Shown: piece by piece, positions 8,401 through 62,934 of the stretch
Numbering within the stretch: position 1 is the stretch's first letter
Layout: every line of letters begins with the position of its first letter
Source: Thunnus maccoyii
Taxonomy: Eukaryota > Chordata > Actinopteri > Scombriformes > Scombridae
Assembly: GCF_910596095.1 (NCBI RefSeq)
Contig: NC_056550.1
Span: 24,796,001 to 24,860,000 of the forward strand
Length of the DNA stretch: 64,000 bases
Direction: 5' to 3'
Position numbers and translations under genes: made by a program
Notes under the pieces: generated by a model
The model's database searches: none
The model's input: only the letters and a program-made list of their open reading frames with translations
What the model was told of the DNA's origin: nothing

Positions 8401-11400
8401 GGTGGAGTATTGCAGTGATGGTTGTCCTTCTGAGAGTTTCTCCCATCTCAAATCAGGATCTCTGGAGATTGGCCAGAGTGACCATTGGGTTCTTGGTCAC
8501 CTCTCTTACCAAGGCCCTTCTTCACTGATTGCTCAGTTTGGCTGGGCGGACAGCTCTAGGAAGGGTCCTGGTTGTTCCAAACTTCTTCCATTTAAGAATT
8601 ATGAAGGCCGCTGTGCTCTTGGGAACCTTCAATGCCACAGAAATTTTTTGTAGCCTTCCCCAGATCTGTGCCTCAAATCAATCTTGTCTGCAGCTAGCTC
8701 CTTCAACCTCATGGCTTGGTTATTGCTTTGATATGTATTTTCAGCTCTGAGACCTTATATAGACAGGTGTATGCCTTTCCAAATCATGTCCAATCAATTG
8801 AATATACCACAGGTGGTGTAGAAACATTTCAAAGATGATCAAGAAAAATGGAAGCCAACTGAGCAAAATTTCAAGCTTTTGAAGATATTAAACAAATGAC
8901 ATATAACGTGTTAATTAGTGAGCATTGAAGATGCTGGTAGGTGGATTTTGTTAGTTGTTTTGTTGTTGTATCGTCTTTGTGCTAGCGAATCATTTCATTT
9001 CATTTCAAGTGTCCGAATACTTATGTCAATGTGATATTTCCATTTTTCAGTTTGAATAAATTTGCAAAAATTTCTAAAATCCTGTTTTTGCTTTGTCATT
9101 ATGGAATAGTGAGTTTAGACTGATGAGGGAAAAAAATGTCACTTCCTGAACAACTATCATTGGTTTGCACACATGTTGTTGTTTTGTCTTACAGAGGGAA
9201 CCTGCAGAGGGCCTTGTGCCAGTACACCAAAGATACCCTCAGTTATATTTACACGCTAAAAGAATTCAGAGAGAGGCTTCCTGAATGGATAGATGCAAGG
9301 AAGGAAGAGATGAAGACGGTGACAGATATCAAAAAGAGAGGTGAGAAGCATGAAGAGCTGGAGAAGGAGTTTGCTACTGTGTTGAAGGTCACTCTGGGAG
9401 GCCTGGAGAAGCTCGACTGCTTCCTGGATGCAGTGGAGAGGCTGGCGGTCACCTCACTGCATGTGTTTAATGAGGAAAACCAGGTGTTACATCTGCCCCA
9501 AGACATCAGCCCTGACAATGTTCAGGTTGGTATCATTGCTGCTCGGCTGGTCTGCCCACTCATCCTTGACTTTAAAAGAGATGCGAAGGCCTTCTTCCTT
9601 CCCAAACTTCAGAATGTGGAAGTGCTGGAATATCAGTTGGACAAATACATCCAGACCACCCAGAAGATCTGTGACAAGTTAGAGGAAAGGTAAAATCTTT
9701 CAGTCATGAACAGCACCTTCTATTTTTTGTTGAAATAATACGCTGATTGTGCAAAAGACATTATTTGAAGTCATATTCATAAATTAATGGTACAATTATA
9801 TAATTCACAGCTCTTTCAGTGAGTTTTGCCAGAGGATGAATATGGAAACTGTGGTAGATCTTGATGTGGATTTGTCTGAAGATGACATACAAAGGATGCT
9901 TTGTCACATCAATCAGCTTAATGAAATCAGGTAAGCATGAAGTGATAATAAGAGGTTTGGTGGTGCTAAAATATTACCTCATTGCAGTTGTGCAAAGTTG
10001 TGTATTTCTGAAATGTAGTCGACACTTTCAATAGTAGAGACAGTTTGAGCTATAATTGGTATTTCAGCTATTTAAAAACATGTTGTATAGAACAGATGTT
10101 TACAAAATTATTGGGCATCCAAAAGCACAAATATTCTGTAGAGGTTTGGCCGGAAGTTGTCTTTAGAACGCAATACTGAAAGGTTCAAGTAGTTAATTTA
10201 CTTTTGATTCCATTTCATCAACAACATCTAATCAGTATTATGTCAGTGTACTGTAGAGTTCAATAGACTTTACAGACAACAACTTCTCTCTGTACCAAAG
10301 ATTAAAATACAGTATGTCTGATATAATAAAAGCCTTTTAAACACTAAATTCAGTGACAAATGGGATTACATTTCCAGTGATTAATTGATCTCTCATTATG
10401 TTATAACTAGTACAGTCTGTATGAATCGTGTAAACTCGAAACATTGAAAATATATGCAATGATTACATGTTATTTGTTTATTGATAAAAGAATGCAGGTG
10501 CACTGAAAGGACACTAGGGGGCAATATGACCCTGATTATGAAGAACACATGACAGTTTATGTGGGTGGCTGTAGTTCAACTAGTAGAGCAGAACATCCAT
10601 TGACTGCAGGAGAGTTTGTGGTTCAATCCCCTGCTTCTTCTTTCCACATGTTGAAGTGTGTAAATGAGAAGGAAATTGTGCTAAATAACTGCAGCAAAAC
10701 TTACCTTGTCTGTTCAAATAGCAGATATACTCTCTTTTGCTTCAATTCTTTACCTTAAATGTCCAGTATTAAATTGGGTAACATATAAAATGATAATTAC
10801 CAAAACACAGTTACTTCTCTAACAAAAAATACAGCTTGATGTGGCTCATTTGACAAATGCTTTTGTCCAAAGTGACTTCCTATTCATACAATTGAGAGTA
10901 ATTTTCAAGGTTCAGTGTGTTGCTTGAGGACACTTCGACACATGGAAAGGAGGAGCCAGGGATTGACCCACCGACTCTATGATTAGTAACTAAATTATGG
11001 CGAGTATATCCAACTGGTAGAATATATCAGACATGTAAGTTTCTGGAGACAGTTTTGGTTCAGGTGTTCATTGAGCCCAGATTCTGAGTTTTGTTCTCTG
11101 CTGATTTTATGACTTGTAACTATTTTGTGCTCATCTTTGCTGAGGTGATTTATTACTGCTTTAGCCTCCTATAGTGTATGTTAAATAAATGTGGAAAACA
11201 TGTACCAAATCCCAAGTGTTTTTCATACTGTATTTTTAATTATCATGTTATGGTTAACAATGTCTTCTCTTTTTTTCTCTCTTCTTTTCTTCTTTTATCT
11301 TTTCTCTTCATCAGGATGGACCAAGACTTCCGGATGGTGTTCTTGTTCAAGGAGGAATCATGTCGTCGCTTCATCAGTGACTTTGATGAACGAAAGCCCA

Positions 11401-12218
11401 GAATGCTGCAGTTTCTAAATGACATGGAGGAGACTTGTGTTCAGCTAGACAGGATGAATAAGGGGTCAAAGATCTCCAGTGTGGCAGGAAGCTCGGTTGG
11501 GGCGGTTGGAGGTGTTCTTACCATCATTGGTTTGGCTTTAATTCCTGTAACAGCTGGAGCATCTCTCGCTCTGACAATGACTGGGGTGGGGCTGGGAATT
11601 ACCAGCGGAGTCAACAGTGCTGTCACCACAGTCACAAAGATTGGAGTCAACCGCAGATATCAAAAGAAAGCCAATGAAGCCTTCCAGAGCTTCATGGAGG
11701 ATGTGCAGAGTCTCCAGGATTGTCTGGAGGAGGTGTCCAGACAAACAGTCACCAACATGAAAGCAAGTAAGAAAGATATGGCTACGGGAGTAGGCAAGGT
11801 GCTTTTGACAGTTGGTGGTGTTGGAAAAGGTATTAAGTCAGTTGCTGATGATGCCTCTGTTATGAAGATGTTGAAAAGTAATAAGCAGATAGCAGGTGCT
11901 GGCAAAGTGTCGGATGTCCCAGATGCTGGTCAGGCAGCAGTCAAAGGGTCCCTTGCTCTCACCAAGTCAGCCAGGGCTGGTCTCATCGGGCTCAATGCTC
12001 TTTTCATTGGCATGGACATCTTCACCATCTGTAAAGACAGCATCAGTCTGGCCAAAGGCAGTGAGACCGAAGTCTCACAGCTCATCAGAGCCAGAGCTGC
12101 ACTTTGGAGATCAGAGATGGACTCGTGGAAGAAGATCCGTGATTCTTTGCGTCAGGGTCTGCGGACGTCAGAGAAAAAACAAGCTATCCTGGAGAGACCG
12201 TTTTATCCACAGAAGTAG
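5436..12218 (+). CDS. APOL-like gene 1 (apolipoprotein L family, short exon 2)
   Basis: Exons 5436-5449, 9195-9689, 9811-9930 and 11315-12218 join in frame to 510 aa. Exon 1 reads MAAP(R); its donor is gtaaag, and the intron sequence after it aligns with that of the other genes, which fixes this start despite the large distance. Residues ~5-209 form a charged, probably all-helical domain with no signal peptide. Residues 211-510 are the APOL domain: a Gly/Ala-rich hydrophobic hairpin at ~271-308 (VGAVGGVLTIIGLALIPVTA...), a variable linker (~350-425), a hydrophobic helix at ~431-450, then an amphipathic tail ending FYPQK. The hairpin resembles the membrane-inserting region of known APOLs, so a cytosolic, membrane-active role, possibly in immunity, is inferred. 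Intron 1 (3.7 kb) holds a Tc1 remnant. Its exon 1 and 5' flank are the most diverged of the seven. Confidence 0.82.
7980..9137 (-). mobile_element. Truncated Tc1/mariner-family DNA transposon
   Basis: Minus-strand fragments match the fish Tc1 transposase: a block at 8446-8252 (ILHQSGLYGRVSG..., then RNKILWSAETKI) continues in another phase at 8251-7979 (FGLNSKHHVWRKPG..., TIPTVNHGGGSVTLWGCFSA, RFTFQQDIGPH). The frame is interrupted between these blocks. It stops at QQDIGPH, where QQDNDPKHTAK would follow, so the second catalytic Asp may survive but the C-terminus is gone. The 5' part (8450-8760) is further decayed. The right part (~9000-9137) is the typical Tc1 5' untranslated region, but the outermost terminal repeat is missing, as is the whole left end. 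Dead element in intron 1 of gene 1. Confidence 0.85.
10562..10660 (+). repeat. tRNA-derived SINE head, gene 1 intron 3
   Basis: An A-box-like block (tgtagttcaactagtagagc) and a B-box (gtggttcaatcc) lie ~50 bp apart, followed by the fish-SINE phrase tttccacatgttgaagtg. There is no closing acceptor stem, so it is not a tRNA gene. Confidence 0.6.
10838..10990 (-). repeat. Minus-strand SINE fragment, gene 1 intron 3
   Basis: The pattern gcttttgtccaaagtgactt ... ttgcttgaggacac ... gggattgaccca ... atgattagtaact is a reversed tRNA-SINE common in teleosts. The B-box reads ggtcaatccc on the minus strand. It is shared by genes 1-6. Confidence 0.55.
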
Positions 12219-17600: not shown

Positions 17601-18766
17601 AAGAGACAGGAAGACCTTCTTTGATTAAAAAAGGGATTTCTAAATTAGTCAGTATATTGAGCCCAGATTCTGTGTTTTGTTCTATACAGATTTTATGACT
17701 TGTAACTATTTTGTGCTCATCTTTGCTGAGGTTATTTATTGCTGCTTTAACCTCCTGTAGTGTATGTTAAATAAATGTGGAAAATATTTACAAAAACCAA
17801 ACTGGTTGTCATACTGTATTTTTAAATATCATGTTATACTTAACAGTGTCTCCTCTTTTTTTTATCTTTCTTCATTTCTCAAATTTATCTTTTCTCTTCA
17901 TCAGGATGGACCAACACTTCCAGATGGTGTTCTTGTTCAAGGAGGAATCATGTCGTCGCTTCATCAAAAAGTTTGATAAACGACATACCAGGATGCTAAA
18001 GTCTCTGAAAGTCCTGGAAGAGAGTGCTGTTCAACTAGACAGGATGAATAAGGGGTCAAAGATCTCCAGTGTGGCAGGAAGCTCGGTGGGGGTAATTGCA
18101 GGTATTTTTACCATCGTTGGGGCGGCATTAAGTCCTGTAACAGCTGGAGCGTCTTTCGCTCTGGCAATGACTGGGCTAGGCCTGGGAGTTACCAAAGGAG
18201 TTAACAAGATTATCACCAAAGTCACAGAGATTGGAGTCAACTGCACATATAAAAAGAAAGCCAATGAAGCCCTCAAGAGCTTCATGAAGGATGTGAAGAG
18301 TATCCAGCGGTGTCTGGGGGAGGTGTCCAGTCAAACAGTCACTGACATAGAAGTAAGTAAGGAAGATGTGGCTACGGGAGCAGGCGAGGTGCTTGGGGAT
18401 GTGGGTGGTGTTGCCATGCAAATATTGAAAGGTAAAAAGAAGATTGCAAATGCTGGCAACGTGGTGGCCCAGGAAAACATAGGGTTAGGTAACGTGTCCA
18501 CAGTGGCGTCAGATATCTCAGATGGAGGTCAAGAAATGGTCAACGGGTCCCTTGAGGTCCCTAGTTCCATCATGCTCAGTTCTCTTTTCATTGGTATGGA
18601 CATCTACACCATCTGTAAAGACAGCATCAGTCTGGCTAAAGGCCGCGAAACCGAAGTCTCACAGTTCATCAGAGCCAGAGCTGCACTTTGGAGATCAGAG
18701 ATGGACTCGTGGAAGAAAATCCGTGACTCTTTGCATCAGGGTCTGCTGACATCAGAGGAAAAATGA
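14659..18766 (+). CDS. APOL-like gene 2 (long exon 2, early TGA)
   Basis: Exons 14659-14672 (MSAER), 15563-16159, 16281-16394 and 17905-18766 give 528 aa. The donor of exon 1 is gtacgt, where the other MSAER copies have gtaagt. Exon 2 is the long form: between DITDRADEI and RRKELQKEL it carries a stretch making the exon 102-105 nt longer than in genes 1, 3 and 5. Exon 3 lacks one Asp-Val pair (114 nt), as in gene 6. The APOL domain starts at M243. Its hairpin reads VGVIAGIFTIVGAALSPVTA, and its linker differs strongly from the genes with the IIGLALIPVTA hairpin. The protein ends LLTSEEK at a TGA where genes 3 and 4 have CGA, so the last ~12 residues (ILETPFYPQR type) are lost. Gene 6 is its closest relative in the array. 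Confidence 0.83.
15113..15230. repeat. Interspersed repeat fragment, gene 2 intron 1
   Basis: The sequence aatccaacttaattaaattt, then tatatagtgacaaatcataacaaaagttatctcagggcactttt in part, resembles the common fish repeat 'tttatatagcgccaaatcacaacaa'. Related copies lie at the same place in genes 4 (33268), 6 (50231) and 7 (59636) and are absent from genes 3 and 5. The insertion therefore marks the long-exon-2 lineage. Confidence 0.45.
17081..17180 (+). repeat. tRNA-derived SINE head, gene 2 intron 3
   Basis: The A box tggctcagctggtagagca fits the RNA polymerase III consensus, and the B box is agttcaatccc. Orthologous to the copy in gene 1. Confidence 0.6.
17369..17524 (-). repeat. Minus-strand SINE fragment, gene 2 intron 3
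   Basis: Same element and position as 10838-10990 of gene 1. Confidence 0.5.
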
Positions 18767-20393: not shown

Positions 20394-20607
20394 GATGGAC
20401 CAACACTTCCGGATGGTGTTCTTGTTGGAGGAGGAATCATGTCGTTACTTCATCAGTGAGTTTGATGAACAACAGCCCAGGATGCTGCAGTTTCTAAATG
20501 ACCTGGAGGAGAGTGCTGTTCAGCTAGACGGGATGAATAAAGGGGCAAAGATCTCCAGTGTGGCAGGAAGCTCGGTCGGGGAGGTTGGAGGTATTTTTTC
20601 CAAGTGA
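20394..20607 (+). pseudogene. Truncated APOL last exon, copy 1
   Basis: An intact acceptor (cttttctcttcatcag) is followed by the first ~65 codons of APOL exon 4 (MDQHFRMVFLLEEESC... to ...AGSSVGEVGG). The frame then ends in a TGA after GIFSK. The hairpin, linker and C-terminal helix are missing. Sequence jumps directly to the region that in gene 5 surrounds the CaaX codons (aaacagtcttgtgtaatacag) and its 3' flank. No exons 1-3 lie upstream. The splice phase is intact, so gene 2 exon 3 could in principle be joined to it in frame. Confidence 0.8.
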
Positions 20608-22734
20608 AAGAAACAGTCTTGTGTAATACAGTAGAAGCAGCAATAGTCTCACAAAGTGCTTTTTTTGACAACTCTGATTAAAGTGAATGAACCATGTATG
20701 GAAATTCAATCTTGCTAACAGCTGTAAATCATTGATCAGTGTTGAACATCATGTAAGTCTGTTCATGAGAAATTCTTAATTAGCTGCATTTCTAATGACA
20801 AACCGATTAATTGAGTCTGTATGTGTTTTCCTTGACTAGATTTCTATACCTTTTGCCAACTTTGAAGCTTGTTTAAACACATAATGCATTATATCTGCCA
20901 TTCAGTGATACTTTTGATTAAGAATAATGATATGTGAAAAATAAGAAAACTGCTTTTAACACAAGAGTTGCCATTTTCTACCATGTCCAATGCTCCAGTG
21001 TATATTTTACCATATAAAGAGAGCACAATACTTAGATTAGATTGTATTAGAATAATGCTAGGTGCCTTTTCTGCTTCATTTATTAGACACCAAGTAGCCA
21101 AAATAAATGTGTTTTGATGTTTGTTGTTTTTCTTTGTACAGTGTGGGATATTGTGGTGCGTGCACATCGTGAGGCTCAGCGTCTCATCGTTTTTTTGATA
21201 TTTACTTAACTTTCTCTGAAGATATAGCATCATTTATGCTGTAGCACTTACTTTCCTGCACTCATCTGTAAATAATACTGTATTTTTGCACTTCTGGTTG
21301 GATGCTAACTGCATTTCATTGGCTTTGTACCCGTACTCTGAACAATGACAAAGTTGGATCTAATCTATTGTTTCATAAAACGGAAGCAGTTTTCCAAAGA
21401 TGTGGTGTCCATGGAGATACCTGCTTTGGTCTTTGCAGTGTCTTATTTTTGTAATGCTTTGATTTTATAATGAAACTATATCACTGGTTTCACTATTTTT
21501 ACTGTCTTGTTATTCTGACTTGAGAAAAGATCTGTATTCAATAAATGTATGTAAATGTAAGACACAGATTGACTTTCTTTCTTCTCTTTGTCTCAAACCT
21601 TTAGTCTTGTTTAGTTTAGTTTAGTTTGGTAAGTTTTATTTGTATTCTAGAAAATTGAGTTTGGACACTAATTTTAAAGAAGAAATTTTAAAATACTCTT
21701 CTTTGACTTGACTTCAACTGCTGGACACAAGATGTCTCCTACTTCACTGTAAAGTCCATTCTCAATGTTTGTGCTCTGTAGGCTTCATGTTTCCATATCA
21801 CACTTGTGTATGTTTCTATATGTATATATCTATTTTTTTCACCTACTGGCTTGTAAATAATAGTCATACATTTATGTTTACATATCTCTGTTCAGCTTGT
21901 TGTCCTTGTTTTGGCTGTATATCCATGTGTATCTCCTGAACATTGTTGTACATTGACAGCCACTGGAATCTGGAGTCAAATTTCTTTTATACATAAACAT
22001 ACTGTACTTGGCCTCTTGTGACAACCCACACAAAATTTTGTCCAGTCACTCGGCACGTATACAACTTCCTTCACAGCCGAGGTCTGATGCTGATTTCCTG
22101 TAAGTCTGAGATTCAATTTCACATGGTAGTCAAGGTGGCCTAAACCTCCTCAAATAGAGGAAAAGAGGGGAAAAGTCTGTTAATTTTTATTTGCAGTGAT
22201 AATTTAAACTAATCAAGCAAAAAGCAACAAAACGTCACACATGTGGTGTAGCAGCGTCCCAATTTCAGACAGCTACCATGTCAAGCTTGCAACTCGTTTT
22301 TAAGCAGGATCAAAAGAGATCTGCTGAGCTGCCATGACACTACAAATGAAGTAAATAAGAAAAAATACACATCATCTCAGTAATAACAGTAATATGGGGG
22401 TAACAATAGGCTAATCTACTCACAATAAACACATTATATAAGGGTCATATCCTACCAATAATAGTGGGATAATAAGGTAAAATCTCTGCATTTTGAAAAG
22501 AGTAATGATTGTTATATTAAAGGATAAGGTTGGTGATTTTCTATATTTTTCTTATTGTCAACAACTGCCTGTATTCCTCTGTGCTGTAGACCTCTGCTGT
22601 TGTCCAAAAAGGAAGGAAGTAGATGGGTGCGGTGTTGCTTGTTGGAATGGCTTAGTCTTAAAAAGCTGCTCAACAACTGTTTCTAAATAGACACATATTA
22701 GTACGTAAGGGAAAAAGACACTCTGAGGCGACAA
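20608..22734 (+). other. Type II 3' flank and short upstream module of gene 3
   Basis: It matches the gene 5 3' flank: poly(A) signal at 21540-21545, and at ~21255-21375 the 3' tail of a LINE (gcacttctggttggatgcta...). At 21810-22020 it carries the tail of the other LINE with its middle deleted. The gene 3 upstream module is the short form: it passes from gttgtccaaaa straight to aggaaggaagtagatggg, without the Lys/Glu-rich frame. No other gene. Confidence 0.6.
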
Positions 22735-25700: not shown

Positions 25701-26966
25701 AGCCAGGGATTGACCCACCAACTCTATGATTAGTAACTAAATTATGGCGAGTATATCCAACTGGTAGAATAAATCAGACATGCAAGTTTCTGGAGACAGT
25801 TTTGGTTCAGGTGTTCATTGAGCCCAGATTCTGAGTTTTGTTCTCTGCTGATTTTATGACTTGTAACGATTTTGTGCTCATCTTTGCTGAGGTGATTTAT
25901 TACTGCTTTAGCCTCCTATAGTGTGTGTTAAATAAATGTGGAAAACATGTGCCAAATCCCAAGTGTTTTTCATATTTTTCAATATCATGTTATACTTAAC
26001 AATGTCCACTCTTTTTTTCTCTCTTCTTTTCTTCTTTTATCTTTTCTCTTCATCAGGATGGACCAGCACTTCCGGATGGTGTTCTTGTTCAAGGAGGAAT
26101 CATGTCGTCACTTCATCAGTGAGTTTGATGAACGACAGCCCAGAATGCTGCAGTTTCTAAATGACCTGGAGGAGAGTGCTGTTCAGCTAGACAGGATGAA
26201 TAAAGGGGCAAAGATCTCCAGTGTGGCAGGAAGCTCGGTGGGGGCGGTTGGAGGTGTCCTTACCATCATTGGTTTGGCATTAATTCCTGTAACAGCTGGA
26301 GTGTCTCTTGCTCTGACAATGACTGGGGTGGGGCTGGGAATTACCAGCGGAGTTAACAGCGCTGTCACCACAGCCACAGAGATTGGAGTCAACCGCACAT
26401 ATCAAAATAAAGCCAGTGAAGCCTTCCAGAGCTTCATGGAGGATGTGCAGAGTCTCCAGGATTGTCTGGAGGAGGTCATCAACAGTCAGAAAGATGTAGC
26501 TGTGGGAGTAAGCAAGGTGTTTTGTAAAGTTGGTCTTGTTGGAAAAAGCATAGAGTCACTTGTTATGAAGATGTCGAAAAGTAAAAAGCAGATAGCAGGT
26601 GCTGGCAAAGTAGTGGCCGTGGAAGGTAAAGTGTTAAGTGACATGTCCAAAGTGGCGTCACATGTCCCAGTTGTTGGTCAGGCAGCAGTCAAAGGGTCCC
26701 TTGCTCTCACCAAGTCAGCCAGGGCTGGTCTCATTGCACTCAATGCTCTTTTCATTGGCATGGACATCTTCTTCATCTGTAAAGACAGCATCAGTCTGGC
26801 CAAAGGCAGTGAGACTGAAGTCTCACAGCTCATCAGAGCCAGAGCTGCACTTTGGAGCTCAGAGATGGACTCGTGGAAGAAGATCCGTGATTCTTTGCAT
26901 CAGGGTCTGCTGACATCAGAGGAAAAACGAGCTATCCTGGAGACACCGTTTTATCCAGAGGGGTAG
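22735..26966 (+). CDS. APOL-like gene 3 (short exon 2)
   Basis: Exons 22735-22748 (MSAER), 23935-24426, 24548-24667 and 26057-26966 give 511 aa, all with GT-AG borders and phase 2. Exon 2 begins KNLQRALCQYTKDT and is the short form (492 nt), lacking the 35-residue stretch of genes 2, 4, 6 and 7. The APOL domain begins at M210; the hairpin is VGAVGGVLTIIGLALIPVTA. The linker is its own version (INSQKDVAVGVSKVFCKVGL). The C-terminal helix reads AGLIALNALFIGMDIFFICK, and the protein ends FYPEG. Its 3' UTR starts as type I but changes to type II flank at a (CA)n repeat (27226-27311), so it uses a different poly(A) region (27917) from genes 1, 2, 4 and 6. Upstream module and intron 1 pair with gene 5, not with the long-exon genes. 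Confidence 0.84.
25312..25410 (+). repeat. tRNA-derived SINE head, gene 3 intron 3
   Basis: Boxes tgtagctcaactagtagagc and gtggttcaatcc; orthologous to the other intron 3 copies. Confidence 0.55.
25582..25738 (-). repeat. Minus-strand SINE fragment, gene 3 intron 3
   Basis: Same element and position as in gene 1. Confidence 0.5.
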
Positions 26967-35800: not shown

Positions 35801-36853
35801 TTCCTATAGTGTGTGTTAAATGTGGAAAACATGTACTAAATCCAAACTGGTTTTCATACTGTATTTTTAAATATCATGTTATACTTAACAATGTCTCCTC
35901 TTTTTTTTATCTTTCATTTCTTAATTTTATATTTTCTCTTCATCAGGATGGACCAACACTTCCGGATGGTGTTCTTGTTCAAGGAGGAATCATGTCGTGG
36001 CTTCATCATGTCGCGGTTTCTAAATGACCTGGAGGAGAGTGCTGTTCAGCTAGACAGGATGAATAAGGGGGCAAAGATCTCCAGTGTTGCAGGAAGCTCG
36101 GTTGGCGCGATTGGTGGTGTCCTTTCCATCATTGGTTTGGCTTTAATTCCTGTAACTGCTGAAGTGTCTCTTGCTCTGACAATGACTGGGGTGGGGCTGG
36201 GAATTACCAGCGGAGTTAACAGCATTGTCACCACAGCCACAGAGATTGGAGTCAAGCGCACATATAAAAAAAAAGCCAGTGAAGCCTTCAAGAGCATCAT
36301 GAAGGATGTGAAGAGTCTCCAGAATTGTCTGGATGAGGTCACCAACAGGAAAGCAAGTCAGATAGATGTGGCTGTGGGAGTAAGCAAGGGTCTTACTAAA
36401 GATGGTGTTTTTAGAAAAAGCATAGAGTCATTTGTTGATTTTGCCCCTGCTGGTAAGATGTTGAAAAGTGAGGACCTGATTGCAAGTGCTGGTAAGGTGG
36501 TGGCCCACAAACGTAAAGTGTTACATGACATGTCCAGAGTGGCATCAGATGTCCCAGATGCCGGTCAGGCAGCAGTCACAGGGCCCCTTGCTCTCACCAA
36601 GTCAGCCAGGGCTGGTCTCATCGGGCTCAATGCTCTTTTCATTGGCAAGGACATCTTCACCATCTATAAAGACAGCATCAGTCTGGCCAAAGGCAGTGAG
36701 ACTGAAGTCTCACAGCTCATCAGAGCCAGAGCTGCACTTTGGAGCTCAGAGATGGACTCATGGAAGAAGATCCGTGATTCTTTGCATCAGGGTCTGCTGA
36801 CATCAGAGGAAAAACGAGCTATCCTGGAGACACAGTTTTATCCACAGAGGTAG
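32823..36853 (+). CDS. APOL-like gene 4 (long exon 2)
   Basis: Exons 32823-32836 (MSAER), 33708-34304, 34426-34545 and 35947-36853 give 545 aa. Exon 2 is the long form. The APOL domain begins at M245 and has an in-frame 27-nt deletion near its start: it reads CRGFIMSRFLNDLEES where gene 3 has CRHFISEFDERQPRMLQFLN. This removes nine charged residues before the hairpin (VGAIGGVLSIIGLALIPVTA). The linker (VAVGVSKGLTKDGVFRKSIE) is shared with gene 5, not with the other long genes, which points to exchange between copies. The C-terminal helix carries a Lys (FIGKDIFTIYKDS), unlike the FIGMDI of all others. Ends FYPQR. A second upstream module with an identical exon 1 lies 2.3 kb further up (30565). 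Confidence 0.83.
33268..33350. repeat. Interspersed repeat fragment, gene 4 intron 1
   Basis: Shortened copy of the element at 15113 in gene 2: tttatacagcaccaaattat, then ctcagggcacttttcac. Confidence 0.4.
35154..35252 (+). repeat. tRNA-derived SINE head, gene 4 intron 3
   Basis: Decayed copy; the A box is damaged (tggctcaactagtagagttg), the B box kept. Confidence 0.5.
35431..35575 (-). repeat. Minus-strand SINE fragment, gene 4 intron 3
   Basis: Same element as in gene 1, with a short internal deletion after gaggacac. Confidence 0.45.
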
Positions 36854-38529: not shown

Positions 38530-38788
38530 GATGGACCAACACTTCCGGATGGTGTTCTTGTTCGAGGAGGAATCATGTCGTTACTTCATCAGTGAGTTTG
38601 ATGAACAACAGCCCAGGATGCTGCAGTTTCTAAATGACCTGGAGGAGAGTGCTGTTCAGCTAGACGGGATGAATAAAGGGGCAAAGATCTCCAGTGTGGC
38701 AGGAAGCTCGGTCGGGGCGGTTGTCTTGTGTAATACAGTAGAACCAGCAGTAGTCTCACAAAGTGCTTTTTTTGACAACTCTGATTAA
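38530..38788 (+). pseudogene. Truncated APOL last exon, copy 2
   Basis: It has the same acceptor and first ~63 codons as copy 1, but the internal deletion is larger: ...AGSSVGAV runs straight into gtcttgtgtaatacagtag in a shifted frame, giving VLCNTVEPAVVSQSAFF and a stop at 38788. The CaaX codons are present in the DNA but out of frame. No exons 1-3. Confidence 0.8.
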
Positions 38789-41429: not shown

Positions 41430-44400
41430 ATGTCTGCAGAAAGGTAAGTTTTAAATCAGAGCTACTGCTGCCTCTGTATAATAATTTCAATATGCACTTT
41501 ATATCCAAATCAACATGTAATTAATATATTTGACATATTTCATATTGTAAACACCAAAACTGTAAATTATATTATATTTTGGGTGTGTGTGTGTTGGTTG
41601 GGTTATAAACACAACAAAAAGATATCAACAAAACATACCCACTACAATAAGGTGAATGTGTTTGTCTTCACAGGCCTTGGGGTTACATTTAAACCATTTA
41701 CTTTATATAATTTGTGGATACATTCATATATGGCATTCATATGTGTGTTGTTTTTAATTGATCTGTCTGAATTAAAAAATCACTTGTGCACTGTATACTG
41801 TAAAAAAAAACAAAAACAATTCTGTCAAATAGAAACATTTGACAATTTGCTCACTTTTATTGCATATAAATATCAAATGACTTGCACAAAACATGGAACC
41901 CCCTGACAAAAGCCTATATCAGCTCAACCTAATTTATACCTGTCAACATCTAGGTTTCAAAAACACAGGAGGTTTTTCTCCCATCCACCATCGATATGTT
42001 TTACACGAGAACAGCTCGCTGGTCAAGCTGATAACACCAAATGCTTTTAAACTTAGCTGCTGGCTGAAACAAAATCAGCCCCTCCTCTTATTTTCAGCAG
42101 GAAACTAAGCGGAGCAGACAACTTGAGTGAGTGCAGTGACGAGTGATATATATCAGGCAGGGTCATTTACACATATTCACCTCTGCCTCTGGGTTGGGTT
42201 GCCAGGTACCATCCCACACAGAAACTGAGGAGCACCCATTTGATTTATGTCACTATGAAATTGGTTGATTAACGGGAGAAATTGCCAATCAGGGGCACAG
42301 CAGAAGAAAGTGTTAAAAATAGGGAGACTCCTGCAAAACTACTGGCAGATATGCTAATTTGGATCTGATCACCTTTCAAAAGCTATGAAAAGCCACATCA
42401 GTGTTCCACTGAATTTAAAAGCTGGTGTTCTTGATCAGTTTAATAAAGTATATCTTTTATCATTGAAAAAGGAGGTTCTGTCAGGTCTTTCTCCTGCACT
42501 GTCTCGCAAATCTAATGTGGACATAAAGTAGGTCTTGCAAGTATCCGATGAGATTTACCTTTAATTTGTTTTCACATTTCACTTCTCAGACAACTACCAT
42601 CAGTTTACATAGACGTTGTTTTGTCTTACAGAGAGAACCTGAGGAAGGCCTTGTGCCAGTACACCAAAGACACCTTCAGTTATATTAACACGCTAAAAGA
42701 ATTCAGTGAGAGCCTCCCTGAATGGATAAATGCAAGGAAGACAGAGTTGAGGACTTTAACAGATATCAAAGACAGAAAGAAGCATGAAAAACTGGAGCAG
42801 GAGCTTGCTGCTGTGTTGAAGGACACTCTGGGAGGCCTGGAGAAGCTCAACTGCTTCCTGGATGCAGTGGAGAGGTTGGCGGTCACCTCACTGCATGTGT
42901 TTAATGAGAAGAACTGGGTGTTACATCTGCCCCAAGACATCAGCCCTGATAATGTTCAGGTTGGTATCATTGCTGCTCGGCTGGTCTGCCCACTCATCCT
43001 CCAGTTTAAAAGAGATGCGAAGGCCTTCTTCCTTCCCAAACTTCAGAATGTGGAAGTGCTGGAATACCAGTTGGTTAAATACATCCAGACCACCCAGAAG
43101 ATCTGTGACAAGTTAGAGGAAAGGTAAAATCTTTCATAAACATGTTCATGAAATGCCACAACCCAAGCCTAAAAATGATTAATGGAGAACTTAGGAACAT
43201 TTAATAAATAAAACAACATAGTTTAATAAATAAATAAATACATTTATTTATCATACACTAATTGCACAAAAGACATTATTTGAAATCATATCTATAAATT
43301 AATGGTATAATTATATAATTCACAGCTCTGTCAGTGAGTTTTTCCAGAGGATGAATATGGAAACTGTGGTAGATCTTGATGTGGATTTGTCTGAAGATAA
43401 GATACAAAGGATGCTTCGTCACATCAATCAGCTTAATGAAATCAGGTAAGCATGAAGTGACAATAAGAGGTTTGGTGGTGCTAAAATATTACCTCATTGC
43501 AGTTGTGCAAAGTTGTGTATTTCTGAAATGTAGTCGACACTTTCAATAGTAGAGACAGTTTGAGCTATAATTGGTATTTCAGCTATTTAAAAACATGTTG
43601 TATAGAACAGATGTTTACAAAATTATTGGGCATCCAAAAGCACAAATATCCTGTAGAGGTTTGGCTGGAAGTTGTCTTTAGAACGCAGTACTAAAAGGTT
43701 CAAGAAGTTAATTTACTTTTGCTTCTATTTCATCAACATCTAATCAGTATTATGTCAGTGTACTATAGTGTTCAATAGACTTTACAGACAACAACTTCTC
43801 TCTGTATCAAAGATTAAAATACAGTATGTCTGATATAATAAAAGCCCTTTAAACACTAAATTCAGTGACAAATGGGATTACATTTCCAATGATTACTTGA
43901 TCTCTCGTTGTATTATAACTAGCACAATCTGTATGAATCATGTAAACTTGAAACAATGAAAATATATGCAATGATTACGTGTTATTTTTTTATTATTAAA
44001 AGAATGCAGGTGCACTGAAAGGACACTAGGGGGCAATATGACCCTGATTATAAAGAGCACATGACAGTTTATGTTGGTGACTGTGGCTCAGCTGGTAAAG
44101 CAGGACATCCATTGACTGCAGGAGGGTCTGTAGTTCAATCCCCTGTTTCTTCTTTCCACATGTTGAAGTGTGTAAATGAGAAGGAAATTGTGCTAAATAA
44201 CTGTGGCCAACTTACCATGTCTGTTCAAATAGCAGATATACTCTCTCTTGCTTCAACTCTTTACCTTTAATGTCCAGTATTAAATTGATAATTGATAATT
44301 GATAAATGATAATTACCAAAACACAGTTACTTATATAACAAAAATTACAACTTGCTGGGGCTCATTTGACAAATGATTTTGTCCAAAGTGACTTCCTGTT

Positions 44401-45790
44401 CATACAAATTAAGAGTAATTTTAATGGCTCAGTGTGTTGCTTGAGGACACTTAGACACATGGAAAGGAGGAGCCAGGGATTGAACCACCAATCCGTATGA
44501 TTAGTAACTAAATTATGGCGAGTATATCCAACCGGTAGTATACTGTATATCAGACATGTAAGTTTCTGGAGACAGTTTTGGTTGAGGTGGAAAAGAGACA
44601 GGAAGACCTTCTTTGATTATCAAAGGGATTTCTAAGTTTGTCAGTTCATTGAGCCCAGATTCTGTGTTTTGTTCTCTACAATGACTTTTATGACTTGCAG
44701 CTATTTCATGCTCATCTTTTGAGATGATTTATTGCTGCTTTAGCTTCCTATAGTGTATGTTAAATAAATGTGGAAAACATGTACAAAATCCAAACTGGTT
44801 TTCATATTGTATTCTTAATATCATGTTATACTTAACAATGTCTCCTGTTATTTATCTTTCTTCATTTCTTATTTTATATTTTACTTCATCAGGATGGACC
44901 AACACTTCCGGATGGTGTTCTTGTTCGAGGAGGAATCATGTCGTCGCTTCATCAGTGAGTTTGATGAACGACAGCCCAGAATGCTGCAGTTTCTGAATGT
45001 CCTGGAGGAGAGTGCTGTTCAGCTAGACAGGATGAATATGGGGGCAAAGATTTCCAGCGTGGCAGGAAGCTCGGTTGGGGCAGTTGGAGGTGTTCTTTCC
45101 ATCATTGGTTTGGCATTAATTCCTGCAACAGCTGGAGTGTCTCTCGCTCTGACAATGACTGGAGTGGGGCTGGGAATTACCAGCGGAGTTAACAGCGCTG
45201 TCACCACAGCCACAGAGATTGGAGTCAACCGCACATATCAAAAGAAAGCCAGTGAAGCCTTCCAGAGCTTCATGGAGGATGTGCAGAGTCTCCAGGATTG
45301 TCTGGACGAGGTCACCAACAGGGAAGCAAGTCAGATAGATGTGGCTGTGGGAGTAAGCAAGGGTCTTACTAAAGATGGTGTTTTTAGAAAAAGCATAGAC
45401 TCACTTGTTGATTTTGCCTCTGCTGTTAAGATGTTGAAAAGTGAAGAGCTGATTGTAGGTGCTGGTAAGGTGGTGGCCCAGGAAGGTAAAGCATTACGTA
45501 TCGTGCCCACAGTGGCGTCAAATGTCCCAGATGTTGGTCAGGCAGCAGTCAAAGGGTCCCTTGCTCTCACCAAGTCAGCCAGGGCTGGTTTCATCGGGCT
45601 CAATGCTTTTTTCATTGGCATGGACATCTTCTTCATCTGTAAAGACAGCATCAGTCTGGCCAAAGGCAGCGAGACTGAAGTCTCACAGCTCATCAGAGCC
45701 AGAGCTGCACTTTGGAGCTCAGAGATGGACTCGTGGAAGAAAATCCACGATTCGCTGTGTCAGGGTCTGCGGACATCAGAGGAAAAATGA
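41430..45790 (+). CDS. APOL-like gene 5 (short exon 2, stop before a CaaX tail)
   Basis: Exons 41430-41443 (MSAER), 42632-43123, 43326-43445 and 44893-45790 give 507 aa. Exon 2 is the short form (ENLRKALCQYTKDT). Intron 2 carries a ~125-bp A/T-rich stretch not seen in the other genes. The APOL domain begins at M210; the hairpin is VGAVGGVLSIIGLALIPATA, and the linker (SKGLTKDGVFRKSIDSLVDF) matches gene 4. The protein stops at TGA 45788-45790 (LRTSEEK). Behind it the same frame stays open for 41 more codons, acidic and Lys-rich, and ends ...KEKQSCVIQ then TAG. CVIQ is a CaaX-type ending of the class usually farnesylated. Gene 7 keeps a similar ending in its open frame. The 3' flank is type II. 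Confidence 0.83.
44074..44172 (+). repeat. tRNA-derived SINE head, gene 5 intron 3
   Basis: A box tggctcagctggtaaagca, B box agttcaatccc; orthologous to the other copies. Confidence 0.55.
44352..44515 (-). repeat. Minus-strand SINE fragment, gene 5 intron 3
   Basis: Same element and position as in gene 1. Confidence 0.5.
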
Positions 45791-46791
45791 GCTATCCTGG
45801 AGACGCCATTTGAACCAGAGATGGAGATCAAGAAAGATAAAGAAACAGAAATGGAATTTCCATCCGACGAAGTGGATGAAAAAGTGAAAGAAAAACAGTC
45901 TTGTGTAATACAGTAGAGCCAGCAGTAGTCTCACAAAGTGCTTTTTTGACCACTCTGATTAATGTGAATGAACCATGTATAAAAATTCAGTCTTGCTAAT
46001 AGCTGGAGATCATTGATCAGTGTTGAACATCATTTAAGTCTAAGGAATTCTTAATTAGCTGCATTTCTAATGACTTAAACTGATGTATTGAGTGTATGAT
46101 TTTTGACTGGATTTTGCCAACTTTTAAGCTTGTTTAAACACATAATGCATTATATCTGCCATTCAGTGATACTTTTAATAAAGAATAATAGTATGTGAAA
46201 AATAACAATACTTCCAGTTGTCATTTTCGACCATGTCCAATGCTCCAGTGTGTATTTTACCACATAAAGAGAACACAATACTTAGATTAGATTGTATTAA
46301 AATAATGCTAGGTGCCTTTTCTGCTTCATTTATTAGACACCAAGTAGGCAAAATAAATGTGTTTTGATGTTTGTTGTTTTTCTTCGTACAGTGTGGGATA
46401 TTGTGGTGCGTGCACATTGTGAGGCTCAGCGTCTCATCGTTTTTTGGGATATTTACTTAACTATCTCTGAAGATATAGCATCAATTATGCTGTAGCACTT
46501 ACTTTCCTGCACTCATCTGTAAATAACACTGTATTTTTGCACTTCTGGTTGGATGCTAACTGCATTTCATTGGCTTTGTACCCGTACTCTGAACAATGAC
46601 AAAGTTGGATCTAATCTTAATGTTTCATTAAATGGAGGCAGTTTTCCAAAGATGTGGTGTCCATGGAGATACCTGCTTCGGTCTTTGCAGTGTCTTATTT
46701 TTGTAATGCTCTGATTTTATGATGAAACTATATCACTGGTTTCACTATTTTTACTGTCTTGTTATTCTGACTTGAGAAAAGATCTGTATTC

Positions 46792-52700: not shown

Positions 52701-53854
52701 TAAAAAAGGGATTTCTAAATTAGTCAGTATATTGAGCCCAGATTCTGTGTTTTGTTATATTTGCTATACAGATTTTATGACTTCTAACTATTTTGTGCTC
52801 ATCTTTGCTGAGGTTATTTATTGCTGCTTTAGCCTCCTATAGTGTATGTTAAATAAATGTGGAAAACATGTACAAAATCCCAAGTGTTTTTCATACTGTA
52901 TTTTTAAATATCATGTTATACTTAACAATGTCTACTCTTTTTTTTCTCTCTTCTTTTCTTCTTTTATCTTTTCTCTTCATCAGGATGGACCAACACTTCC
53001 GGATGGTGTTCTTGTTCAAGGAGGAATCATGTCGTCGCTTCATCAAAAAGTTTGATAAACGACAGACCAGGATGCTAAAGTCTCTGAATGTCCTGGAAGA
53101 GAGTGCTGTTCAACTAGACAGGATGAATAAGGGGTCAAAGATCTCCAGTGTGGCAGGAAGCTCGGTGGGGGTGATTGCAGGTATTTTTACCATCGCTGGG
53201 GCGGCATTAAGTCCTGTAACAGGTGGAGCGTCTCTCGCTCTGTCAATGACTGGGCTGGGCCTGGGAGTTACCAGAGGAGTTAACAAGATTATCACCAAAG
53301 TCACAGAGATTGGAGTCAACTGCACAAATCAAAAGAAAGCCAATGAAGCCCTCAAGAGCTTCATGAAGGATGTGAAGAGTATCCAGGGGTGTCTGGGGGA
53401 GGTGTCCAGTCAAACAGTCACCGAAAGTAAGGAAGGTGTGGTTGTGGAAGTAGGCGAGGTGCTTCGGGATGTGCGTGGTGTTGGAAAAAAGATTCATTCT
53501 GCTGTGAAAATGTTGAAAACTAAAAAGCAGATTGCAAATGCTGGCAACGTGGTGGCCCAGGAAAACATAGGGTTAGGTAACGTGTCCACAGTGGCGTCAG
53601 ATATCTCAGATGGAAGTCAAGAAATAGTCAACGGGTCCCTTGAGGTCCCTAGTTCCATCATGCTCAGTTCTCTTTTCATTGGTATGGACATCTTCACCAT
53701 CTGTAAAGACAGCGTCAGTCTGGCTAAAGGCCGCGAAACCGAAGTTTCACAGTTCATCAGAGCCAGAGCTGCACTTTGGAGATCAGAGATGGACTCGTGG
53801 AAGAAAATCCGTGACTCTTTGCATCAGAGTCTGCTGACATCAGAGGAAAAATGA
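49778..53854 (+). CDS. APOL-like gene 6 (long exon 2, early TGA)
   Basis: Exons 49778-49791 (MSAER), 50673-51269, 51391-51504 and 52984-53854 give 531 aa. Like gene 2 it has the long exon 2 (KLQRALCQYKKETLIDIDTL), the 114-nt exon 3 and a TGA in place of the CGA codon near the end (LLTSEEK). The APOL domain begins at M243; the hairpin is VGVIAGIFTIAGAALSPVTG. Although introns and flanks are almost those of gene 2, the linker differs in sequence and length (TESKEGVVVEVGEVLRDV against TDIEVSKEDVATGAGEVLGD). The C-terminal helix reads MLSSLFIGMDIFTICKDSVS. Gene 2 and gene 6 with their downstream truncated exons look like the two ends of a recent segmental duplication. Confidence 0.84.
50231..50340. 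repeat. Interspersed repeat fragment, gene 6 intron 1
   Basis: Nearly identical to the element at 15113 in gene 2. Confidence 0.4.
52163..52262 (+). repeat. tRNA-derived SINE head, gene 6 intron 3
   Basis: A box tggctcagctggtagagca, B box agttcaatccc; best-preserved copy together with gene 2. Confidence 0.6.
52435..52591 (-). repeat. Minus-strand SINE fragment, gene 6 intron 3
   Basis: Same element and position as in gene 2. Confidence 0.5.
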
Positions 53855-55498: not shown

Positions 55499-55793
55499 GA
55501 TGGACCAACACTTCCGGATGGTGTTCTTGTTCAAGGAGGAATCATGTTGTTACTTCATCAGTGAGTTTGATGAACAACAGCCCAGGATGCTGCAGTTTCT
55601 AAATGACCTGGAGGAGAGTGCTGTTCAGCTAGACAGGATGAATAAAGGGGCAAAGATCTCCAGCGTGGCAGGAAGCTCGGTCGGGGCAGTTGTCTTGTGT
55701 AATACAGTAGAACCAGCAGTAGTCTCACAAAGTGCTTTTTTGACAACTCTGATTAAAGTGAATGAACCATGTATGGAAATTCAATCTTGCTAA
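55499..55793 (+). pseudogene. Truncated APOL last exon, copy 3
   Basis: It has the acceptor ttttctcttcatcag and ~63 codons of exon 4 (MDQHFRMVFLFKEESCCYFI...), then the same joint as copy 2 (...SVGAVVLCNTVEPAVVSQSA). One base fewer in a T run extends the frame to 55793 (ending MEIQSC). It lacks the hairpin and has no exons 1-3 upstream. The frame is open, so a short product is possible if spliced to a gene 6 exon, but nothing shows that it is used. Confidence 0.78.
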
Positions 55794-59180: not shown

Positions 59181-62100
59181 ATGTCTGCGGAAAGGTAAGT
59201 TTCGAATCATTGAACTACTGCTGCTTCTGTGTAGTAATTTCAATATGCACTTTATATCCAAATCAACATGTAATTAATATGTTTGACATATTTTATATTG
59301 TAAACACCAAAACTGTATATTATATTATACTTGGGGTGTGTGTGTGTTGGTGGGGGTATAAATGCAACAAAAACAACAACAAAAAAATATCAACAAAACG
59401 TATCCACTACAATAAAGTGAATGCGTTTCAGCTAAAATTCTGAATTTAAACTCAGAACTCAAATATAATTTTCATATGTGGCCCGAATCCTCTTCCGTAT
59501 GAGACAAACCAGCCCGTCCTCTCATTTTCAGCAGCAAACTGAGGTGCGTATGCTCACCTCTGCTTCTGGGTTGGGTTGCCAGATTACCATCTCACACAGA
59601 AACTGAGGAGCCCCCATTTGTTTTGTATCATCATGAAATCCAATTTAATTCAATTTAAAAACATTTTATATAGTGACAAATCATAACAAAAGTTATCTCA
59701 GAGCACTTTTGACATAGAGCAGGTCTAGACTGTTAAATGAGAGATTAATGGGAGAAATTACCAATTGGGAGAAAGGGTTAATAATAGGGAGACTCTTGCG
59801 AAAAGTGGGAGTGTTGGGAGGTGTGCTAATTTGGATCTGATCACCTTTCAAACCCCTTATGTATCAGTGTTCCACTGGATTTAAAATCTGGTGTTTTGAT
59901 CAGTTTAATAAAGTTTATCGTTTATTACTGAAAAAGGAGGTTCTGCCAGGTCTCTCTCCTGCACTGACTTGCATAACTAGTGTGGAGATAAAGTAGGTGT
60001 TGCAAGATTTTCTTTTCATTTGTTTGCACATTTCACTTCCTGGACAACTATCATCGGTTTACACATATGTTGTTGTTTTGTCTTACAGAGGAAAACTGCA
60101 GAAGGCCTTGTGCCAGTATAAAAAAGAAACCCTCACTGATATTGACACGCTAAAAAAATTCAGTGAGAGCCTCCCTGAATGGAAAGATGCAAGGAAGAAA
60201 GAGTTACAAAGGATCAGGGACATTAAAGACAGAGCTGATGAAATTGACCCGAGCATTGGCCATGTTAAACAGTCAGAGAACAAAGGCAAGGCTATTGTGA
60301 AATATATGAAGAGCAAGGTGACCCTCGTGACTGCAGACAGCAGGCGTAAACAGCTGGAGAAGGAGCTTGCTGCTGTGTTGAAGGTCACTCTGGAAGGTCT
60401 GGAGAAGCTCAACTGCTTCCTGGATGCAGTGGAGAGGTTGGCGGTCACCTCGCCGTATGTGTTTGAGGAGAAGAAGCGAATGTTGCATCTGCCCCAAGAG
60501 ATCAGCCCTGACACTGTTCAGGTTGTCATCATTACTGCTCGGCTGGTCTGTCCACTCCTCCTCAAGTTTAAAAGAGATGCAAAGGCCTTCTTCCTTCCCA
60601 AACTTCAGAATGTGAAAGTGCTGGAATATCAGTTGGACAAATACATCCAGACCACCCAGAAGATCTGTGACAAGTTAGAGGAAAGGTAAAATTTTTCAAT
60701 CATGAACAGCACCTTCTATTTTTTTTTGAAATAATACGCTGATTGTGCAAAAGACATTATTTGAAATCATATCTATAAATTAATGGTATAATTATATAAT
60801 TCACAGCTCTTTCAGTGAGTTTTGCCTGAGGATGAATATGGAAACTGTGGTAGATCTTGATGTGGATTTGTCTGAAGATGACATACAAAGGATGCTTCGT
60901 CACATTAATCAGCTTAATGAAATCAGGTAAGCATGGAGTGATAATAAGAGGTTTGGTGGTGCTAAAATATTACCTTCTTGCAGTTGTGCAAAGTTGTGTA
61001 TTTCTGAAATGTAGTTGACACTTTCAATAGTAGAGACAGTTTGAGCTTTATTTGGTATTTCAGCTATTTAAAGACTTGTTGTATTGAAGACTTGTTTACA
61101 AAAATTTCCTGTAGAAGTTAAGCTGGTCCATTTCATCAACAACATATAATCAGTATTATGTCAGTGTACTGTAGTGTTCAATAGACTTTACAGACAACAA
61201 CTTCACTCTGTACCAAAGATTAAAATACAGTATACTGATATAATAAAAGTTCTTTAAACACTAAATTCAGTGGAAAATAGGATTACATTCCCAGTGATTA
61301 ATTGATCTCTTATTATATTATAACTAGCACAGTCTGTATGAATCATGTAAACTTGAAACATTGAAAATGAATGCAATGATTAAGTGTTATTCGTTTACTG
61401 TTAAAAGAATGCAGGTAAACTAAAAGGACACTAGGGGGCAATATGACCTTGATTATAAAGAACACATGACAGTATATGTAGGTGGCTGTAGCTCAACTAG
61501 AAGAGCAGAACATCCATTGACTGCAGGAGGGTTTGTGGTTCAATCCCCTGCTTCTTCTTTCCACATGTTGAAGTGTGTAAATGAAAGGGAAATTGTGCTA
61601 AATAACTAGCAGATAAAGGGAGGGGAGACTCTCTCTTGCTTCAGTTCTTTACATTAAATGTCCAGTTTTACATTGGGTAATATAAAATGATAATTACCAA
61701 AACACAGTTACTTATTAACAAAAATTAGAACTTGATGTGGCTCATTTGGGAAATGCTTTTTGACTCATCTTTGCTGAGGTGATTTATTACTGCTTTAGCC
61801 TCCTATAGTGTATGTTAAATAAATGTGGTAAACATGTACGAAAACCCAACTGTTTTTTATACTGTATTTTTAAATATCATGTTATACTTAATAATGTCTC
61901 CTTTTTTATCTTTTCTTTTCATCAGGATGGACCAACACTTTCGGATGGTTTTCTTGTTTGAGGAGGAATCACGTTGTTGCTTCAGCACTGAGTTTGATGA
62001 ACGACAGCACCGGATGCTGCAGTTTTTAAATGACCTGGAGAAAAGTGCTGTTCAATTAGACAGGATGAATAAGGGGGCAATGATCTCCAGATTGGCAGGA

Positions 62101-62934
62101 AGCTCAGTGCGGGTGATTGCAGGTATTTTTTCCATCATTGGGGTGGCATTAATTCCTGTGACTGCTGGAGTGTCTCTTGCTCTGAAAATGACTGGGCTGG
62201 GGCTGGGAATTACCAGCGGAGTCAACAGTATTGTCACCACAGCCACAGAGACTGGAGTCAACTTCAAATATCAAAAGAAAGCCAATGAAGACTTCCAGAG
62301 CTTCATGGAGGATATACAGCGTCTTCAGGATTGTCTGGACGAGGCATCCAGTCAAACAGTCACCGACATAGAAGTAAGTAAGACAGATGTGGCTGTGGGG
62401 GTAGGCAAGGTGCTTTGGAAAGTTCGTGGTGTTGGAAAAAAATTCAGTTCATTTGCTCATGCTGTCTCTGCTATGAAGATGTTGAAAAGTAAAAAGCAGA
62501 TTGCAGTTGCTGGCAAGGTGGTGGCCCAGGGACACAACGTGTTAGGTAACATGCCTGGAGTGGGGCCAGATATCCCAGATATTGGTGAGGTAGCAGTCAA
62601 CGGGTCCCTTGACCTGTCTGATTCAGCCAGGGCTGGTGCCATCACGCTCAATGTTTTCTTCATTGGCATGGACATCTACAACATCTGTAAAGACAGCGTC
62701 AGTCTGGCCAAAGGCAGCGAGACCAAAGTCTCACAGCTCATCAGGGCCAGAGCTGCACTTTGGAGCTCAGAGATGGACTCGTGGAAGAAGATCCGCAACT
62801 CTTTGTGTGAGGGTCTGCGGACATCAGAGAAAAAACTAGCTATCCTGGACATGCCATTTGAGCTGGATGAAAGAAAGATAAAGAAACAGAAATGGAATTT
62901 CCATCTGATGAAGTGGTCTTGTATAATACTGTAG
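59181..62934 (+). CDS. APOL-like gene 7 with C-terminal CaaX box
   Basis: Exons 59181-59194 (MSAER), 60089-60685, 60807-60926 and 61926-62934 give 579 aa, the longest of the array. Exon 2 is the long form, with local differences (TSPYVFEEKKRMLHLPQEIS). The APOL domain starts at M245; the hairpin is VRVIAGIFSIIGVALIPVTA. The linker has a full-length version (FAHAVSAMKMLKSKKQIAVA), and the helix reads AGAITLNVFFIGMDIYNICK. The codon that is CGA or TGA elsewhere is CTA here, so the frame continues past LAILDMPFEL into a basic stretch (DERKIKKQKWNFHLMKW) and ends SCIIL. CIIL is a CaaX box whose Leu favours geranylgeranylation; with the basic run it would give a lipid plus polybasic membrane anchor. 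Intron 3 is ~400 bp shorter than in the others (minus-strand SINE lost). It lies at the end of the array. Confidence 0.84.
59636..59745. repeat. Interspersed repeat fragment, gene 7 intron 1
   Basis: Same element and position as 15113 in gene 2. Confidence 0.4.
61481..61580 (+). repeat. tRNA-derived SINE head, gene 7 intron 3
   Basis: Boxes tgtagctcaactagaagagc and gtggttcaatcc. The companion minus-strand SINE is reduced to ~30 bp at 61731-61760. Confidence 0.5.

Follow-up and report, generated by a model that had tools for sequence, protein, structure and literature searches.

An open gene of the apolipoprotein L (APOL) family in Thunnus maccoyii, here called gene 7, ends in a CaaX box, CIIL, which is homologous to the CVIQ ending of an intact sister gene and has been lost repeatedly in other copies of a tandem array. 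The ending had been noticed in the letters of one frame; the finding is real, and the intact homologue of the Cys box gives it a better foundation. We consider it rather probable that gene 7 belongs, as an intact copy, to this tandem APOL array and that its ancestral CaaX box is modified by GGTase-I, its product being held at membranes by the lipid together with a basic run. The window is the whole stretch of 64,000 nucleotides that was analysed (contig C18:24796001-24860000), and positions below refer to it unless a contig is named; the genome searched comprised 782 Mb in 54 contigs.

Results

Structure and coding potential of gene 7

Gene 7 (copy W7 of the array) consists of four exons separated by GT-AG introns, with 579 codons uninterrupted by a stop (window 59181-62934). 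Its parts are as follows.

59181..59194, + strand: exon 1, MSAE and a split Arg codon, with ATG and GT donor
60089..60685, + strand: exon 2, N-terminal region, no Pfam family
60807..60926, + strand: exon 3, by the spliced open frame
61926..62934, + strand: last exon, encoding the ApoL domain and the C-terminal tail, by PF05461 and the open frame
62869..62916, + strand: basic linker ERKIKKQKWNFHLMKW, in a frame differing from the sister gene, between deletions of 7 and 23 bases
62917..62934, + strand: SCIIL-stop, CaaX box of GGTase-I type, by the frame and the alignment to the sister gene

The last exon matched the Pfam family PF05461 (ApoL) at 102.1 bits, against a cut-off of 25.9, over positions 48-287 of the 298 in the profile, and the ApoL membership proposed in the earlier note is thereby borne out. 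A Pfam scan of the exon 1-2 product found no family for the exon 2 region. All 17 genome-wide matches to exon 2 fell in the C18 array or in a copy on contig C1; within this genome, therefore, exon 2 has relatives only in this APOL subfamily. The N-terminus, MSAERGKLQKALCQ, is unlike a signal peptide as judged by eye, and no relative was found in viral contigs or in bacterial and archaeal genomes.

The last exon gave only weak matches in a PDB profile search, two of them to alpha-pore toxin components (E 0.0035 and 0.0046) with designed coiled coils ranking beside them (E 0.0061-0.069), and exon 2 had no match below E 0.11. These matches were set aside as helical background. An AlphaFold2 model from a 14-row alignment reached a pLDDT of 41, too low for use.

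If gene 7 were evolving neutrally, ∼4.1 stop mutations would be expected on its terminal branch; none is seen (P ∼0.016), a rough estimate, since the branch length came from FastTree and the transition weight was assumed. Comparison with the 10 other aligned copies, over exon 2 and the last-exon core (tail and the degraded copy P2 excluded), gave dN/dS values of 0.60-0.83, which represent weak constraint. The first AATAAA 3' of the stop lies at 63416, ∼480 bases on.

The CaaX ending has a homologue in an intact sister gene

The frame claimed by the earlier note at 62770-62934 was confirmed: it reads ...MDSWKKIRNSLCEGLRTSEKKLAILDMPFELDERKIKKQKWNFHLMKWSCIIL-TAG and ends MKWSCIIL-TAG. Gene 7 closes with ERKIKKQKWNFHLMKW-SCIIL-stop, the Cys codon occupying 62920-62922 and the stop 62932-62934. 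This ending conforms to the formal CaaX rules (Cys fourth from the end, aliphatic a1 and a2, a permitted X and a stop directly after), and Lys or Arg make up 6 of the 16 residues preceding SCIIL. Among 6992 stop-to-stop frames of at least 20 codons, taken from 22 loci outside the C18 array that include the tail piece of the C1 copy (locus L023) and several loci with distant ApoL-like exons, 18 (0.26%) closed with a canonical CaaX, and 7 (0.10%) had the GGTase-I-like form C-aliphatic-aliphatic-[LFIM]. A chance ending is unlikely mainly because of the intact homologous CVIQ ending of the sister gene, which is stronger evidence than these frame statistics.

This sister, P1 (C18:24761574-24767556), lies ∼90 kb upstream and has 584 open codons, counting a putative first exon of MAAPR type that splices in frame. 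It ends ETEMEFPSDEVDEKVKEKQSCVIQ-stop, with the closing residues DEKVKEKQSCVIQ and with QSCVIQ directly before the stop. The substitutions GTA to ATA (V to I) and CAG to CTG (Q to L) make CVIQ correspond to CIIL, and both stay inside the CaaX rules. In the alignment with P1, the linker of gene 7 has a shared stretch flanked by a deletion of 7 bases on its 5' side and one of 23 bases on its 3' side; because these deletions sum to 30 bases, the frame is restored exactly at SC-a-a-X-stop, and the stretch between them is read in another frame in gene 7 than in P1. The net charge of the tail is −6 over 36 residues in P1 and +3 over 26 residues in gene 7.

The consequences for the earlier interpretation are mixed. 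The ApoL family and the GGTase-I-type CaaX stood and a homologous CVIQ was gained, but the basic run, taken there as a second membrane signal, is not conserved as such: it is the frame-shifted reading of a stretch whose counterpart in the sister is net acidic. Having arisen with the frame change, this run cannot be a long-kept second signal. Any pair of random indels would bring the frame back in about a third of cases, which counts against the preferred explanation.

To place the ending within the genome, the last codons and stop were used as a DNA word, allowing up to two mismatches. The whole genome held 10 forward matches, the C18 array accounting for nine and C24 for the tenth; a reversed-pattern control gave four forward matches and one reverse match, and the C24 match, with two mismatches, is within that level. 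The P1 ending and the nine array places together point to a subfamily ancestor with a CaaX box, and the homologous box in intact P1 argues that the Cys of gene 7 was inherited. Thus, going by these alignments, the CaaX ending is most likely ancestral to the subfamily, in the form CVIQ, rather than the accident of one frame, on a tree of copies that is unrooted and among which 3' ends may have been exchanged. Such an exchange is suggested by gene 7 itself, as its coding core groups with W2, W6 and W4 and its 3' end resembles that of W5.

Loss of the box in the tandem array

In total, twelve copies carry exons 2-4: P1-P4 upstream of the window, W1-W7 inside it and one on contig C1, with P2 degraded in exon 2. 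The motif is not generally retained among these paralogues. An in-frame CaaX closes the open frame in 2 of the 12, and most copies therefore manage without the box, which is absent from the end of the open frame in the other 10. The routes of loss differ: a nonsense codon in W5; frameshifts of −1 in P2, −2/−8 in P3 and −5 in P4; an earlier stop with deletion of the CaaX DNA in W1-W4 and W6; and a box both interrupted and altered in the C1 copy. This last copy is the most diverged from gene 7; a piece of its tail persists ∼2.3 kb beyond, and KKDKETEMEFPYDRVDEKVKETLFCVIW, read in one frame of that piece, is not followed by a stop. The corresponding features inside the window are listed here.

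11316..12218, + strand: W1 last exon from ATG, ends FYPQK-stop, CaaX DNA deleted downstream
17906..18766, + strand: W2 last exon from ATG, ends TSEEK-stop, CaaX DNA deleted downstream
26058..26966, + strand: W3 last exon from ATG, ends FYPEG-stop, CaaX DNA deleted downstream
35948..36853, + strand: W4 last exon from ATG, ends FYPQR-stop, CaaX DNA deleted downstream
52985..53854, + strand: W6 last exon from ATG, ends TSEEK-stop, CaaX DNA deleted downstream
45791..45916, + strand: tail of W5, AILETPFEPEMEIKKDKETEMEFPSDEVDEKVKEKQSCVIQ-stop, in frame yet preceded by the TGA at 45788-45790
20617..20634, + strand: SCVIQ-stop DNA word, end of an exon-4 fragment starting at 20395
38724..38741, + strand: CaaX DNA word, end of an exon-4 fragment starting at 38531, out of the fragment's frame
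55693..55710, + strand: CaaX DNA word, end of an exon-4 fragment starting at 55500, out of the fragment's frame

The word at 20617..20634 is in the frame of its fragment but behind a stop (GGIFSK-stop-KKQSCVIQ-stop).

Several further features of the array were observed. A short second exon 4 stands behind W2, W4 and W6 (20395-20634, 38531-38741 and 55500-55710), made of the 5' part of exon 4 with the same splice acceptor, fused to CaaX-end DNA; these fragments could be alternative short last exons. The TGA after TSEEK falls at the same codon in W2, W5 and W6 (18764-18766, 45788-45790 and 53852-53854), despite which W5 sits apart from W2 and W6 in the tree, so that either gene conversion or recurrent mutation would account for it. 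Exon 2 of W1, W3 and W5 (9196-9687, 23939-24424 and 42636-43121) is shorter by 34-36 codons than the 198 of gene 7, in frame.

ApoL-like genes elsewhere in the genome

A Cys fourth from the end was found in none of nine more distant ApoL-like loci whose last open frame was read (two on C12, one on C22, one on C8, C18:8.9 Mb, C18:29.1, 29.3 and 29.6 Mb, and C19; last exons predicted, the 29.3 Mb locus being below the Pfam cut-off). Two loci with an N-terminal exon only, C22:17705102 and C2:7921568, are outside this count. Among the loci read, the box is consequently confined to this subfamily, and the idea that a CaaX is a general ApoL trait of this genome was rejected for them.

Two of these loci, at C18:29.6 Mb (L031 ∼5312-5650) and 29.1 Mb (L032 ∼4190-4534), hold very similar single-frame genes of 276 codons with a weak ApoL match (36 bits), and seem to be a further group of distant ApoL-like genes. 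On C12 (L025 ∼3101-3334, minus strand) an ApoL C-terminal exon runs into a frame of 586 codons that carries a long, highly charged tail rich in Arg, Ser, Glu and Lys.

First exons and upstream sites

A 14-base first exon of MSAER type occurs at nine places on C18, seven inside the window and two upstream of it; a second kind accompanies other copies.

14659, 22735, 30565, 32823, 41430, 49778 and 59181 (window): first exons of MSAER type
C18:24761574: P1 first exon, MAAPR type

The MAAPR word, 20 bases with six mismatches to the MSAER exon, is identical upstream of P1, P3 and W1, and a similar one stands upstream of the C1 copy. The two kinds of 14-base first exon suggest two promoter types in the array.

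Strict ISRE-like sites within 1 kb upstream gave no support for an interferon induction of gene 7: four of the nine MSAER-type first exons have such a site in that interval and that of gene 7 is not among them. ISRE-like GAAANNGAAA sites stand at window 14100, 14196, 30102, 32374 and 49305, ∼450-560 bases upstream of four first exons.

Discussion

The earlier note had read CIIL as a recognition form of GGTase-I, and published assays agree. Human GGTase-I expressed in yeast fully geranylgeranylated this same tetrapeptide and left CaaS/Q endings unmodified (PMC11152559). The text of that report does not contain CVIQ itself, but the behaviour of the CaaS/Q class leads to the prediction that gene 7 and P1 bear different lipids. 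CIIL was also assayed there with human FTase, and its shift persisted without FTase (PMC11152559); the lipid carried in a given cell is accordingly not fixed by the letters alone. Provided that the gene is expressed, gene 7 is likely prenylated, as we infer from these assays of the same tetrapeptide elsewhere.

The protein of gene 7 would be synthesized in the cytosol and geranylgeranylated on its Cys by GGTase-I, after which the last three residues would be removed and the new end methylated. The lipid, aided by the adjoining basic run, may then keep the ApoL domain bound to host membranes at their cytosolic face or, alternatively, to the membranes of cytosolic microbes, and the ApoL helices would act on the bilayer there. 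We propose this membrane place and effect by analogy only: the protein would function as an APOL domain fitted with a two-part tail like that of GBP1, while not being a GBP.

Against a needed function stand the 10 of 12 copies without the box, the weak constraint and the origin of the basic run as a by-product of a frameshift. These observations lend weight to the view that the box is a relic, which worked in the ancestor and now does nothing needed even if prenylated, the tail being free of constraint and gene 7 and its sister simply not having lost the box yet. We regard this as a real but doubtful possibility. It fits the several routes of loss, the dN/dS of 0.60-0.83 and the fact that the gene 7 linker could change entirely in both sequence and charge; it fits less well with the survival of both the frame and the CaaX rules through two deletions and two substitutions in gene 7, or with the keeping of the box in two full-length open genes.

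It would be a very remarkable coincidence, and is hardly credible, if C-I-I-L were the product of a drifted frame. The linker frame did drift, and canonical CaaX endings do close 18 of 6992 frames, but SCIIL stands in register with SCVIQ of the open sister and the flanking DNA aligns; the homologous ending in P1 contradicts a chance origin, which we rejected. There is also an outside probability that gene 7 yields no CaaX protein at all, being silent or spliced to another 3' end. The distance of ∼480 bases from the stop to the first AATAAA and the presence of fragments and broken copies in the array are compatible with this, whereas the intact splice sites and 579 codons, which neutral evolution would be expected to have broken with ∼4.1 stops, count against it. 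An intact gene with an inherited, GGTase-I-modified box thus remains the reading that we prefer.

In humans the APOLs and the GBPs form two distinct families of defence proteins, and APOL3 is enabled to kill a target once a prenylated GBP has coated it (PMC12091997). If a fish APOL has inherited its CaaX ending, a single protein would bring together the lipid anchor and the action on membranes. More speculatively, and we hold this only tentatively, the fish may have an APOL subfamily with its own prenyl anchor, so that the targeting step that human APOL3 owes to a prenylated GBP1 coat would be built into the APOL chain itself; within the array this anchor may have switched from farnesyl (CVIQ) to geranylgeranyl with a basic run (CIIL) and been lost in most sisters, giving related membrane-active proteins sorted to different membranes. 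Paralogues that naturally end in CVIQ, in CIIL or without a box would allow a direct test of the role of the anchor. Even if the box is only a relic, the array is a clear case of a lipid-anchor motif lost by many routes.

Comparison with known systems

Gene 7 resembles the apolipoprotein L family (human APOL1-6 and mouse APOLs) in exceeding the PF05461 cut-off, and it has a Gly-rich hydrophobic stretch in common with the more distant ApoL proteins of its own genome. Like most APOLs, which are not known to carry one, it shows no signal peptide by eye. Gene 7 differs from the family in its exon 2 region without a Pfam family and in its C-terminal CaaX. A term search found the stem "prenyl" absent from the main text of three APOL reviews (PMC13177371, PMC12248677, PMC7891394), and the matches listed from open-licence PubMed Central described neither a prenylated APOL nor a fish APOL with a CaaX, although such a report may exist in print elsewhere.

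The C-terminal CaaX is a likeness to GBP1, GBP2 and GBP5. In GBP1 the box adjoins a basic patch and both are needed for anchoring; the CaaX and a triple-arginine patch are required to coat bacteria, and recruitment of GBP1 enables killing by APOL3 (PMC12091997). Unlike the GBPs, gene 7 has no GTPase family in Pfam scans of its exon 1-2 product and last exon (the 40-residue exon 3 being outside the scans), and its predicted lipid is geranylgeranyl, unlike the farnesyl of GBP1.

CIIL itself has been assayed as a GGTase-I substrate (PMC11152559). Gene 7 shares this tetrapeptide class with CaaL-type proteins such as G-gamma subunits and Rho GTPases, to which its protein family is unrelated. The prenyl tail of OAS1 belongs to one isoform. 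Prenylated OAS1 is a defence protein, an interferon-induced sensor of double-stranded RNA, that is placed at membranes by this tail (PMC7612834). Unlike in OAS1, an unrelated protein in which the tail differs by isoform, the tail of the fish APOLs differs by gene copy.
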